Assembly: GCA_014190235.1 (NCBI GenBank)
Contig: BJGC01000015.1
Location: 1 to 52,911 of the forward strand
Reading direction: 5' to 3'
DNA: 52,911 nt
Source: Actinomycetes bacterium
GTDB taxonomy: Bacteria > Actinomycetota > Acidimicrobiia > Acidimicrobiales > Ilumatobacteraceae
Made by a program: the position numbers and the translations under genes. This document shows, piece by piece, positions 45,950 to 52,011 of the stretch. The stretch's first letter is position 1; each line of letters opens with the position of its first letter. The notes beneath the pieces were generated by a model. It was not told the origin of the DNA. It saw only the letters and a list, made by a program, of their open reading frames with translations, and made no database searches.

Positions 45950-45984
45950 CCCAGTCAACCTCGACACACCCTCTGAATATCATG

Positions 45985-46027
45985 TAGGAATAACACTTAA
46001 TTAGTGTTATGATGTAGTTACTACATC
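45985..46027 (+). promoter_or_regulatory. Two palindromes around an extended -10 before the VWA gene
   Basis: ATAACACT (45990-45997), five bases, AGTGTTAT (46003-46010) is a perfect inverted repeat. It is followed at once by GATGTAGT (46011-46018), one base, ACTACATC (46020-46027), a second perfect repeat of different sequence. TG-T-TATGAT (46005-46013), an extended -10, spans the join. A third ATGTAG occurs at 45982-45987. This layout suggests repression of the VWA gene by one or two dimeric regulators, not encoded nearby. Confidence 0.7.
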
Positions 46028-46056
46028 TAAATATAGCTCACGAGAGGAGCCCTGCA

Positions 46057-46746
46057 ATGACCACCAACCCAACCAATCCCGTTACCCACCTCTACATCCT
46101 GATCGACCGATCAGGCTCAATGTCGTCTATTGCCAGTGATGTCATCGGCGGATTCAACCAGTTGATCGCCAACCAGCGTCGTGACGGCATTGATGCCCGA
46201 GTCACGCTGGTGCAGTTTGACTCTCAAGATCCAAGCGACGTCATCGTGGCTGGTGCCAACATCAGCGAAATCGTCGAACTAGACGGACGCACCTATCTGC
46301 CCCGCGGCGGAACACCCCTTCTAGACGCAACCGGTCTGTTGATCGGTCGTGGTCGAGTTGATCAAGCCTCTCGCGAGGTAACTGGCCTTCCCAAAGAAAA
46401 CATCGTGTTCGTTACCATCACAGACGGTGAAGAAAACCAAAGCCGTGAGTACGACCTTGACCGCATTCGCACACTCATCAAAGAGTGTGAAGACGATCAC
46501 GACTGGACATTTGTCTTTTTGTCGGCAGCACTTGATGCCTACGCAGACGCAGGTCGATTCGGAGTATCGGTCGGATCCAACCAGGCCTTTAGTCCTTCAA
46601 GCGACGGCACGCGTCTAGCATTTTCGAGTCTCGACACAAATCTCAAGAACTTCCGCGACAAAAAACGTCGTCATGAGTTCACCGATAAGCAAGAGTTCTT
46701 TGAATCCAAAGAAGCAGAAGAGCAGCGCAACAAAGACGAGAACTAA
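46057..46746 (+). CDS. Von Willebrand factor A domain protein
   Basis: The 229-residue soluble protein has no signal peptide. It carries a VWA domain with the MIDAS metal site: D17-x-S19-x-S21 (LIDRSGSM), a threonine in GGTPLLDATG and an aspartate in ITDGEEN. The C-terminal 35 residues are highly charged. VWA proteins usually bind partner proteins through the metal; the partner here is unknown. GAGGAG precedes the ATG. The AT-rich operator upstream suggests tight induction. Confidence 0.87.
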   Translation: MTTNPTNPVTHLYILIDRSGSMSSIASDVIGGFNQLIANQRRDGIDARVTLVQFDSQDPSDVIVAGANISEIVELDGRTYLPRGGTPLLDATGLLIGRGRVDQASREVTGLPKENIVFVTITDGEENQSREYDLDRIRTLIKECEDDHDWTFVFLSAALDAYADAGRFGVSVGSNQAFSPSSDGTRLAFSSLDTNLKNFRDKKRRHEFTDKQEFFESKEAEEQRNKDEN

Positions 46747-48534: not shown

Positions 48535-49767
48535 ATGACATCTATCTACGGTCCAGTCACTGACTGGGAACACGACTTTGATCACGCTGATCCTGAGTAC
48601 AACGCCAATGTTCATCAGATCTGGGATGACTTGTTGAACAAAAAACAATGCCCCGTTGCGCACACTGAGCGCTATGGCGGAACATGGTTGCCGCTCACAC
48701 ATGAACATGTTCGTGAGATCGCATATGACACAGAACATTTTACGAGTCGTTCTGTTGTCGTTGGCACCACAAAGCCGAGCCAGTTCGATCCGCAACCACC
48801 CCCGTCACCGATTGGCAATGCACCACCGATTAGCAGTGACCCTCCGTTCCATGCAGAAGCACGACGCTTATTGCTGCCAGCTTTTTCTCCCAAGAAAATC
48901 GACCCGTGGGCCAGCGAGATTCGTCGCATCTGCCACCAACTCATTGATGACATGGGAGATGTGCAGTTTGTCGATGCCGCTCAGCAATACAGTCAAGATA
49001 TTCCAGTGCAAGTTATTGCTCGTATGCTTGGTTTCCCCGTGCAAGATGCCGACAAGTTTCGACACTTCGTGCATCTCGTACTTGAGAGTGTTAATGAAGA
49101 TCGCGAAACTCGCCTTGCAAAGTTCATGGTTTTTGATGAGTATCTCACTCACCAAATCAACGACCACATTGCCAATCCGCGTGATGACCTCACAACGTAT
49201 TTATTAAACGCCGAAATCATGGGCAATAAACTCTCGCCAGAACATGTGGGCGGCACAATCATTCTGCTTCTCGTGGCGGGCATCGACACAACATGGAGCG
49301 GAATCGGATCTTCATTGTGGCACCTCGCAACCAATGCTGTCGATCGTCGTCGCCTGGCAGAAAATCCAGACATGATCCCCACTGCCGTTGAAGAATTTTT
49401 GCGCGCCTATGCGCCCGTCACAATGGCGCGACTCGTGCGCGACGATTATGACTTTCACGGATATGCAATGAAAGAAGAAGACTGGGTCTTGCTTCCGTTC
49501 CCTGCTGCGAACCGAGATCCGAACGTTTTTCACGACCCCGACACTGTGGTGATTGACCGTGAAGAAAACCGACACGCCGCCTTTGGCCTCGGAATTCATC
49601 GTTGCCTGGGCTCAAACTTGGCGCGACTCGAGATGAACGTGGCAATTGAGGTCTTTCTCGAACGATTCCCAGACTTTGAATTAGATCAGAGCGAAGAAGT
49701 GACGTGGAGTGTGGGTCAGGTTCGTGGACCACGCAGGCTTCCCGTGCGTATCACAGCCCGCTCGTAG
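48535..49767 (+). CDS. Cytochrome P450
   Basis: The ATG at 48535 after AAGGAA gives 410 residues, usual for a soluble bacterial P450. The I-helix oxygen-binding motif is AGIDTT (248-253), the K-helix ExxR is E287-R290, and the haem-binding loop is FGLGIHRCLG with the thiolate C357. It would hydroxylate an unknown hydrophobic substrate using electrons from the ferredoxin encoded just upstream. The long frame upstream of this ATG overlaps the ferredoxin gene. Confidence 0.95.
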   Translation: MTSIYGPVTDWEHDFDHADPEYNANVHQIWDDLLNKKQCPVAHTERYGGTWLPLTHEHVREIAYDTEHFTSRSVVVGTTKPSQFDPQPPPSPIGNAPPISSDPPFHAEARRLLLPAFSPKKIDPWASEIRRICHQLIDDMGDVQFVDAAQQYSQDIPVQVIARMLGFPVQDADKFRHFVHLVLESVNEDRETRLAKFMVFDEYLTHQINDHIANPRDDLTTYLLNAEIMGNKLSPEHVGGTIILLLVAGIDTTWSGIGSSLWHLATNAVDRRRLAENPDMIPTAVEEFLRAYAPVTMARLVRDDYDFHGYAMKEEDWVLLPFPAANRDPNVFHDPDTVVIDREENRHAAFGLGIHRCLGSNLARLEMNVAIEVFLERFPDFELDQSEEVTWSVGQVRGPRRLPVRITARS

Positions 49768-49770
49768 ACT
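49765..49770 (+). promoter_or_regulatory. -10 box for pcrA overlapping the P450 stop codon
   Basis: TAGACT begins with the P450 stop codon TAG (49765-49767) and ends six bases before the pcrA GTG at 49777. The arrangement matches the other leaderless candidates. It would give pcrA its own transcript although it is only nine bases from the P450 gene. Confidence 0.45.
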
Positions 49771-49776
49771 GAGCAG

Positions 49777-52011
49777 GTGTCTGTCGCAAATGCTGATCAA
49801 CTGAATCCCAATCAGCACGAGGCTGTCTTTCATTCTGGGGGTCCACTCCTAGTCATTGCAGGTGCCGGCAGCGGCAAAACGCGTGTGCTCACGCAACGTA
49901 TCGCTCACTTAGTTCGAACAGGCGTGCACCCCATGCATATCTTGGCAATCACCTTCACCAATAAGGCTGCCGACGAAATGCGTCATCGCGTGGCAGACCT
50001 TGTCGGAGACGTCGCGAGCAAAATGTGGGTCAGCACTTTTCACAAGGCATGTGTTCGCATGTTACGCATGAACGCCGACCGCATTGGATACAACAAGGCT
50101 TTCACTATTTACGATTCACAAGACAGCAAGCGCCTCGTCGGCTATGTCATTCGTGACATGGGTCTTGATCCGCGCAAGTTTCCCGCAGGAGCAGCGCAAG
50201 CACGCATCAGTCTCTGGAAAAACGAACTCATCGATGCCAACAAGGCCCATGACATCGCCAGCCATATTGTTGACAAAAAGCACGCCGAAGTTTTTGCTGA
50301 ATACCAAAATAGGCTTTTGCGTGCTGGGGCAATGGACTTCGACGATCTCTTGCTCAATACAGTCAAACTATTGCGAGAGTGTCCAGATGTATTGGCGATG
50401 TATCAGACTCGCTTCGAACACATTTTGGTTGATGAATATCAAGACACCAACCAAGCCCAAAACCAAATCGTGCTCATGCTGGGGGCCAAGCACCACAATG
50501 TTTGCGTTGTCGGCGACACTGACCAAAGTATCTACAAATTTCGTGGCGCAGATTTTCGAAATCTGACAGAGTTCGAAACAGCCTTCCCTGATGCAACCGT
50601 GGTGGTGTTGGCCCAAAATTATCGCAGCACACAAACTATTCTCACTGCAGCAAATGCAGTGATTACGCACAACACAGGTCGGCACCCTAAAGACCTCTGG
50701 ACAGCACACGGCGGTGGCGACAAAATAGTTCGCTATTTTGCTCAAGATGAATACGACGAAACCGGATGGGTCGCAACTACTGCAGATCATCTACACGAAA
50801 CAGCCGCTCGTCCATGGCGCGAGATGGCGGTCTTTTATCGTGCCAACTCACAGAGTCGCGTTATGGAAGAAGCACTCATGCGTCGCGGTATTCCCTACAA
50901 AGTTGTAGGTGGTACAAAGTTCTACGAACGCCGAGAAGTACGAGATGCGTTGGCGTATCTCAGGGCGGCTGCAAATCCTGCTGATGAAATCAGTCTCAAG
51001 CGCATTATCAACGTTCCTAAACGTGGCATCGGTGACACCAGTCTTGCCAAGATCGATGCATGGGCTCGTCAACAAGACATTGGCTTTCGTCAGGCGCTTG
51101 TTGATTGTGCTCAGGCCGGTGTCGGAGCAGCAGCAGTGCGGGGCATCGCATCATTTCTCGAACTCATGGACGCACTTCACGCGGCTATTCCAAATGGACC
51201 ATCTGAAGTTCTGCAGATGGCAATGGACAACAGCGGCTACATCCGCGAACTCAATGAAGAAGACACTGTCGAGTCAGCAGGTCGACTCGAAAACATTGCA
51301 GAGTTCATTGGTTCTGCTGCTGAATACACCGTGGTGGACGAGTTCTTAGAGCAAGTGTCACTCGTTGCTGACACCGATGATCTCAACGAAGAAAACCATA
51401 TTGTGCTCATGACTCTTCATGCCGCAAAAGGTTTAGAGTTTCCCGTCGTGTTTTTGATTGGTTGCGAAGACGGCGTGTTCCCACACAATCGCAGCCTCTT
51501 AGATCCCCAAGAACTCGAAGAAGAACGACGCCTCGCCTATGTTGGCATTACGCGCGCCAGGGAGCAGTTATATGTGTCGCACGCCTGGCAACGCATGTTG
51601 TTTGGGCAGACTCAATACAACCCACCTTCACGATTCTTATCCGAAATACCTGCCGAACTATTTGATCGTCAAGGAGCGGTCGACTCTGGCGTCGATAGTG
51701 GACGCGTCTTTGGACGTGGTGCGTCTGACTGGAACGACGCAGAGATTCCGGCGTACAGAAAAATGGGTGGCTCGTCACCTGCTGAGTCGTACGAAAAGGC
51801 TCCTGCCAAACGCGCTGAACGTCGTGGCCCAGATGAGTTCAGCCACCTCAAAGTGGGCGACGACGTGGAGCATTCAATATTTGGCGAAGGTGTCATTATC
51901 GAACTGCGGGGCACAGGCGACAGAGCCGAGGCAACTGTTCGCTTTTCTCGCGTTGGCACAAAACACCTTGCCCTCGGATGGGCTCCGCTCAAGAAAATCT
52001 CAGGCAGTTAG
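49777..52011 (+). CDS. pcrA: ATP-dependent DNA helicase PcrA/UvrD
   Basis: The 744-residue superfamily 1A helicase starts at a GTG. Motif I is AGAGSGKT (28-35), with TFTNKAADEMR (Ia), VDEYQDTN (II), GDTDQSIYKFRGA (III), NYRSTQ (IV), TLHAAKGLEFPVVFL (V) and EERRLAYVGITRAREQLY (VI). The C-terminal SHLKVGDDVEHSIFGEGVII module is typical of PcrA and is known to bind RNA polymerase. It unwinds DNA 3' to 5' in repair and replication restart. The 30-residue low-complexity linker before that module is normal. Confidence 0.96.
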   Translation: MSVANADQLNPNQHEAVFHSGGPLLVIAGAGSGKTRVLTQRIAHLVRTGVHPMHILAITFTNKAADEMRHRVADLVGDVASKMWVSTFHKACVRMLRMNADRIGYNKAFTIYDSQDSKRLVGYVIRDMGLDPRKFPAGAAQARISLWKNELIDANKAHDIASHIVDKKHAEVFAEYQNRLLRAGAMDFDDLLLNTVKLLRECPDVLAMYQTRFEHILVDEYQDTNQAQNQIVLMLGAKHHNVCVVGDTDQSIYKFRGADFRNLTEFETAFPDATVVVLAQNYRSTQTILTAANAVITHNTGRHPKDLWTAHGGGDKIVRYFAQDEYDETGWVATTADHLHETAARPWREMAVFYRANSQSRVMEEALMRRGIPYKVVGGTKFYERREVRDALAYLRAAANPADEISLKRIINVPKRGIGDTSLAKIDAWARQQDIGFRQALVDCAQAGVGAAAVRGIASFLELMDALHAAIPNGPSEVLQMAMDNSGYIRELNEEDTVESAGRLENIAEFIGSAAEYTVVDEFLEQVSLVADTDDLNEENHIVLMTLHAAKGLEFPVVFLIGCEDGVFPHNRSLLDPQELEEERRLAYVGITRAREQLYVSHAWQRMLFGQTQYNPPSRFLSEIPAELFDRQGAVDSGVDSGRVFGRGASDWNDAEIPAYRKMGGSSPAESYEKAPAKRAERRGPDEFSHLKVGDDVEHSIFGEGVIIELRGTGDRAEATVRFSRVGTKHLALGWAPLKKISGS

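Follow-up and report, generated by a model that had tools for sequence, protein, structure and literature searches.

The closest described systems, given here after the accessible parts of the cited reports, are the following: (i) The RecA-NDp promoters of mycobacteria and other actinobacteria, whose published consensus is tTGTCRgtg-8 nt-TannnT (PMC5656591), and the regulator PafBC, which is activated by single-stranded DNA and binds the −26 motif through PafB (PMC11804915). (ii) The macrodomain hydrolase SCO6735 of Streptomyces, which is UV-inducible and stands under a RecA-NDp promoter (PMC5087735, PMC9411070). (iii) The NAD+/ADP-ribose conflict systems centred on an ADP-ribosylglycohydrolase (ARG), which a survey describes with a Nudix or WYL regulator and a vWA chaperone (PMC9503650).

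The locus presented here lies in a window of 52,911 nucleotides, the whole stretch of DNA that was analysed, and compares with these systems as follows. As in the RecA-NDp/PafBC promoters, 8 nt (counted from TGTCRGTG) precede TANNNT, the window reading TCGACACAC-CCTCTGAA-TATCAT; PafB- and PafC-like proteins are encoded in the window's genome, and the box is here too common to recA and repair genes, with an SOS-type box at recA besides. The box itself differs, being TGNCACACC here and TTGTCRGTG in the known system. SCO6735 is likewise an ADP-ribose-processing enzyme with a RecA-NDp-type promoter, but it belongs to another protein family, that of the macrodomains, and the accessible text of its reports mentions neither VWA, ARG nor NrtR. 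As for the ARG-centred systems, the genus has an ARG with a phosphatase domain, an NrtR-like protein, a vWA protein and ARPP-1, and the first three of these often adjoin; in contrast to those systems, the parts are dispersed in the window's genome and have in common a DNA-damage-type promoter, which goes unmentioned in the accessible part of the survey.

The features to which we refer are these:

45962-45970, + strand: −26-type box CGACACACC, a variant of the family consensus TGTCACACC
45978-45983, + strand: TATCAT, the −10 hexamer of promoter P1, separated from the box by 7 nt
45982-45987, + strand: first copy of the half-site ATGTAG, which overlaps the P1 −10 and lies upstream of the predicted start
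45990, + strand: predicted start of transcription from P1 (box start + 28)
45990-46010, + strand: palindrome 1, arms ATAACACT (45990-45997) and AGTGTTAT (46003-46010), 5-nt spacer TAATT; also a predicted RNA stem-loop
46005-46013, + strand: extended −10-like TGTTATGAT, spanning the palindrome join; possible second promoter P2
46011-46027, + strand: palindrome 2, arms GATGTAGT (46011-46018) and ACTACATC (46020-46027), 1-nt spacer T
46022-46032, + strand: TACATCTAAAT, with an exact match in the ARG gene leader of the same genome
46044-46049, + strand: Shine-Dalgarno sequence GAGGAG ahead of the VWA ORF
46057-46746, + strand: VWA-domain gene, 229 aa, MIDAS intact; Pfam VWA models match below their cut-offs
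49749-49770, + strand: second box TATCACAGC-CCGCTCG-TAGACT, upstream of a UvrD/PcrA helicase gene; best score of the window with the recA-only matrix

A damage-type box upstream of recA, DNA-metabolism and VWA genes

Outside the genus, the box was present at 28 of 28 recA loci of the family, matching 10 to 12 of the 12 consensus positions; inside the genus it was weaker, being found at 3 of 3 loci with 11, 9 and 9 matching positions. These 31 loci were drawn from the 56 genomes that gave a match to recA, and 29 of the loci additionally carry an SOS-type box, as sought with a regular expression. The family consensus TGTCACACC retains TGTCA without the GTG, and the window's CGACACACC departs further from the published −26 box.

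The pattern TGTCACACC-N7-TANNNT was met 34 times, in 10 of 17 genomes, and its reversed control not once; an exact copy is absent from the window's genome. Thirty loci were fetched, the downstream ORFs being scanned at 20, while 4 further ones were read as recA. Fourteen of the 20 scanned ORFs matched DNA-related families (exonuclease, HNH, PD-(D/E)XK, SSB, RadA-like ATPase, SRAP or DUF222 models; three of the 14 through DUF222 alone, and L184 and L186 below the curated cut-off), 2 matched other families and 4 had no match. DUF222, a domain of unknown function, is tied to HNH nucleases, and the DUF222-HNH combination was observed in L154.

In the window's own genome (G000), the pattern GNCACACC-N7-TANNNT gave 6 sites against 4 in controls, which is barely above control. 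All 6 precede a same-strand ORF (position was viewed for the pattern sites alone), and the genes concerned are those of DnaE, a DUF222/HNH protein, an ARG with a phosphatase domain (DSPc), an RCC1 protein, the VWA protein and RecA. A strict pattern, TGNCACAC-N8-TANNNT, was tried in the same genome and set aside: with 3 sites against 4 controls it seemed empty, yet one of its sites precedes recA. Across 32 genomes of the genus, the pattern search returned 16 sites, spread over 11 genomes, and the reversed control returned 9; four of the 16 are the VWA promoters from which the pattern itself was taken. Each of the 16 is followed by a same-strand ORF of at least 99 codons with a possible start 61-104 nt downstream; the ORFs scanned include an ADP-ribosylglycohydrolase, ARPP-1, a TPR protein and a DSPc-like protein (below cut-off), and two had no match.

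Upstream of the VWA gene, a box near TGACACACC-N7-[TA]ANNNT, with 0-2 changes, was found in 14 of 14 congeneric VWA genomes, one VWA copy being counted per genome, also in G172 and G025, which have two; the variants are TGACCCACC, TGACACACG, TGACAGACC, CGACACACC and TGATACACC. No good box was seen by eye upstream of VWA at the seven loci of two sister genera (L007-L013), of which L007, L008, L009 and L013 were also scored. At the Lysobacteraceae-type loci L073, L077 and L078, another palindrome-like string, GTCTCAG...GTGAGA, was seen by eye ahead of VWA.

The window's genome has just two PF13280 (WYL) matches, which adjoin each other. One of the proteins matches a PDB chain named PafC (3.3e-28) together with HTH_PafC; the other matches a PafBC fusion (5.3e-8) and the companion chain of the same PDB entry (1.8e-12), whose name there is simply 'Transcriptional regulator-like protein'. 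From the standpoint of sequence, the proposed assignment of the VWA promoter to the PafBC-activated type is well supported. Searches of the literature for DNA damage in Acidimicrobi together with PafB returned nothing, and the matches listed for TGTCACACC as text were unrelated by title.

The predicted start site of P1

At 14 of the 30 TGTCACACC sites the start codon (ATG or GTG) of a long ORF lies at +28 (6 sites) or +29 (8 sites) from the box, the next commonest offsets being +20 (5 sites) and +53 (4 sites). In a leaderless gene the start codon can be read as the transcription start. Because the pile-up was read in this way, box + 28 should mark the transcription start, which in the window would be 45990. 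Palindrome 1 opens with this very base, and the palindromes would therefore cover the start site and the leader. Many of the box genes at L159-L188 appear to be leaderless, exonuclease, RadA-like and DUF222/HNH genes included. The UvrD/PcrA helicase gene of the window, whose domains were confirmed by scan, also appears leaderless: its GTG at 49777 is box + 28, and the box ends 6 nt ahead of it.

The recA-only matrix was rejected as a pointer to the VWA site, which it did not single out. The VWA box scored −2.1 and ranked 31 of 105,780 in the window, since its first bases and its −10 depart from the consensus.

Twin palindromes at the predicted start site

The preliminary description reported two perfect 8-bp inverted repeats placed end to end in an AT-rich block, and both observations hold: the repeats occupy 45990-46010 and 46011-46027, and the segment 45980-46037 has 27.6% G+C, a value as low in 0.03% of the window's 58-nt stretches. 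The region 45990-46027 is the sole place in the window where two 8-bp palindromes (spacer of at most 8) lie within 2 nt of each other, and no such pair arose in 40 dinucleotide shuffles of the window. The nearest orthologues keep the repeats: L003 is identical, L033 has one arm base changed and L034 carries paired changes, with two pairs of palindrome 2 altered on both sides. In the latter (genome G025) the three half-sites all read GTGTAG/CTACAC in place of ATGTAG/CTACAT, and the ARG leader there has a like change. From clade to clade the letters of the dyad after the VWA box differ.

It could be argued that the dyads have no specific function and that VWA is an ordinary housekeeping gene. 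Single 8-bp palindromes are indeed not rare, numbering 26 in the window (shuffle mean 10.8, maximum 24). However, the window has no other adjacent pair and the shuffles have none at all, the changes in L034 are paired, and every clade examined has a stem or dyad close to the start site, all of which makes this explanation very improbable.

The symmetry had also been taken to imply dedicated repression, perhaps by two regulators acting on a promoter core that spans the palindrome join. The symmetry probably does serve regulation, and a pair of regulators is plausible, in the form of a PafBC-type activator and an NrtR-family repressor. TGTTATGAT does lie across the join, at 46005-46013, but the main promoter is most likely CACACC-N7-TATCAT, 30 bp upstream. 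The + strand of the window has just two copies of TAT[C/G]ATGTAG, one at 45978 and the other exactly 30 bp on, at 46008, and TATGATGTAG forms a second −10-like unit 30 bp past TATCATGTAG; a second promoter at the 46008 unit (P2) is possible.

If TGTTATGAT were itself the promoter, with a start at about 46020 and the palindromes as operators of two dedicated repressors, several features would fit: TATNATGTAG is present twice, 30 bp apart; the leader would measure about 37 nt, like the 31-43 nt in other clades; palindrome 2 would straddle the start; and L034 retains TGTTATAGT. Nonetheless, no CACACC box stands at N7 or N8 ahead of 46008, the arms alone already force the conservation of TGTTATGAT in the clade, and other clades have a single box-promoter. 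Furthermore, the regulon that the exact repeats had led one to expect did not materialise, the 25-mer 45990-46014, even with as many as 3 mismatches allowed, occurring once only in the 2.02-Mb genome, which likewise speaks against this arrangement. We regard it as distinctly improbable.

Stem-loops in the RNA or an operator in the DNA

With a start at 45990, the P1 mRNA would begin with two stem-loops (8 and 7 bp), and the palindromes might act as RNA, stabilising the 5' end or tuning translation, in which case structure alone would matter. Palindrome 1 begins exactly at the predicted +1, and the leader has a minimum free energy of −19.4 (z −3.9). Each of the 14 box-bearing VWA leaders examined, which represent about 6 clades, has a stem of 5 bp or more that begins between +1 and +7, as do 25% of random positions; stems of 6 bp or more are seen in 7 of the 14, compared with 11% of random positions. 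The letters of the stem vary between clades; two pairs have changed on both sides and one pairing is kept through G-U. Among 16 leaders of other box genes, 10 have an early stem (in the first 10 nt), including all three of ARPP-1 and that of recA, but 6 have none, ARG leaders (L138, L155) among them.

Other observations are less favourable to the RNA. In 10 of 11 VWA leaders (not in L005), a 35-nt fold taken from 7 nt upstream of the start is at least as stable as that of the leader, so the symmetry reaches into DNA that would not be transcribed, although leaders of the window's clade gain little by it (0.2 to 1.3 kcal/mol). In that clade, moreover, the stability of the first 35 nt is ordinary for the locus (29% of windows are as stable), which weakens the RNA explanation. 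The covariation is weak with 4 sequences, 29 of 500 shuffles reaching it; in an alignment of the ARPP-1 stem-loop a single pair shows a two-sided change, a result reached by 126 of 500 shuffles. A literature search for 5'-terminal stem-loops together with mRNA stability returned nothing. Structure alone also leaves unexplained both the change of the upstream half-site copy in L034 and the likeness of the VWA and ARG leaders within a genome.

Eleven genomes have both genes, and this likeness was examined in 7 of them, taken by our own judgement to stand for one clade each, using hand-set segments and an ungapped score. With the Shine-Dalgarno regions left out, VWA and ARG leaders were more alike within than between genomes, a result equalled in 10 of 5040 permutations. 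The corresponding figures were 4/5040 for whole 50-nt segments, 38/5040 with either strand allowed and 4/720 without G082, and two control regions put through the same test were negative (3420/5040 and 3747/5040). The within-genome scores were 11 in G000, 8 in G025, 12 in G177 and 8 in G181, while those of G082 (7), G058 (6) and G115 (5) lie near the between-genome mean of 5.8. The strings held in common are TACATCTAAAT in G000, TTT[C/G]TACACT in G025, AGGGACATATC[G/T]AC in G177 and TAC[T/C][C/T]AAACCCC in G181; each overlaps an arm of the VWA dyad, the likeness being clear in these 4 of the 7 genomes. No clear dyad was seen by eye in the ARG leaders.

We infer that a DNA operator is to be favoured, most likely one of the NrtR-like protein. 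The action of the palindromes as RNA stem-loops is the main rival and seems to us rather unlikely as the explanation, but both may hold.

The VWA protein and its predicted partners

The MIDAS, which had been described as intact, is so: D17, S21, T86 and D123 do not vary among 10 aligned sequences, that of the window among them, and S19 hardly does. We take these residues to be those of the motif (DxSxS...T...D). No Pfam or NCBIfam family lies above its cut-off, VWA and VWA_2 matching below theirs; the protein matches PHROG 7371, of unknown function, strongly (4.5e-41). It was found in 31 of 200 genomes of the family, 14 of the 31 belonging to the genus of the window (g1; 22 genomes in this search), the window's own included, and genome_contigs yielded a further 69 loci, of which the nearest three are named as Acidimicrobiaceae, Ilumatobacteraceae and Actinomycetota MAGs. 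Relatives are encoded in 215 phage records (89 of Streptomyces, 57 of Microbacterium, 37 of Pseudomonas, and others), where, among the matches listed, they are mostly annotated 'hypothetical protein'.

The partner of the VWA protein, left blank in the preliminary description, can be predicted from linkage in the genus: likely partners are an NrtR-like regulator and ADP-ribosylglycohydrolase. A VWA copy adjoins an NrtR-like gene in 12 of 14 congeneric VWA genomes (G025, G172, G093, G177, G185, G115, G160, G181, G152, G082, G166 and G144; the exceptions are G000 and G058), and one copy of ARG is divergent from NrtR in 14 of 17 ARG genomes (exceptions G093, G115 and G201). In the window's own clade VWA stands apart from both. 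The window's genome has its parts dispersed, with VWA on contig C15 and the NrtR-ARG pair on C4, where the NrtR-like gene (C4:98897-99589) is divergent from ARG. Its product (L233) matches NUDIX (PF00293, 3.5e-15) and NrtR_WHD (PF21906, 1.6e-11), and the NrtR-like proteins of two relatives that were scanned have both domains as well. ARPP-1 occurs in 7 of 32 genomes of the genus; the window's genome gave no match to it.

In G025, near L190, a broken VWA gene with one in-frame TAG (C4:34216-34455) lies beside NrtR and ARG, the intact VWA being elsewhere. At L195, L219 and L221, a palindrome CCCTTAT-TTC-ATAAGGG stands just upstream of the ARG box, between the box and the NrtR-like gene.

Discussion

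We propose, at roughly even odds, that the VWA gene belongs to an ADP-ribose-processing module and has a promoter with two inputs, PafBC-type activation and an operator at the start site. For the first input, the PafB-PafC pair would act through the −26 box CGACACACC and the −10 seven bases on: DNA damage would yield single-stranded DNA, and PafBC would then let the housekeeping polymerase start at 45990. For the second, the palindromes would be the operator, most likely of the NrtR-family repressor (a Nudix sensor) encoded with ARG, which an ADP-ribose-type ligand would release. The VWA protein may in turn assist the removal of ADP-ribose. Here the start site, the binding of PafBC and of NrtR, the direction of control, the ligand and the part of VWA in ADP-ribose removal are all inferred from sequence. 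A literature search joining PafBC with ADP-ribosyl terms returned nothing; the SCO6735 papers make the link through the name RecA-NDp.

ADP-ribose is a chemical tag that is also used in conflicts between phages and their hosts. Tentatively, and as no more than one possible history, this Ilumatobacteraceae-like genus may have wired an ADP-ribose conflict module (ARG, the NrtR-like sensor, VWA and sometimes ARPP-1) into the PafBC regulon, so that single-stranded DNA would be read at −26 through PafBC and ADP-ribose at the start site through an NrtR-type operator, the half-site co-evolving across the module. If this is true, a gate of this kind would suit a response to the ADP-ribosylation of DNA or host proteins by a phage or toxin, and would join PafBC-type damage control with the ARG/NrtR/vWA conflict systems. 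The form of the damage promoter could help in compiling the regulon of uncultured Acidimicrobiia, and partners are hereby proposed for a VWA family that phages also encode.
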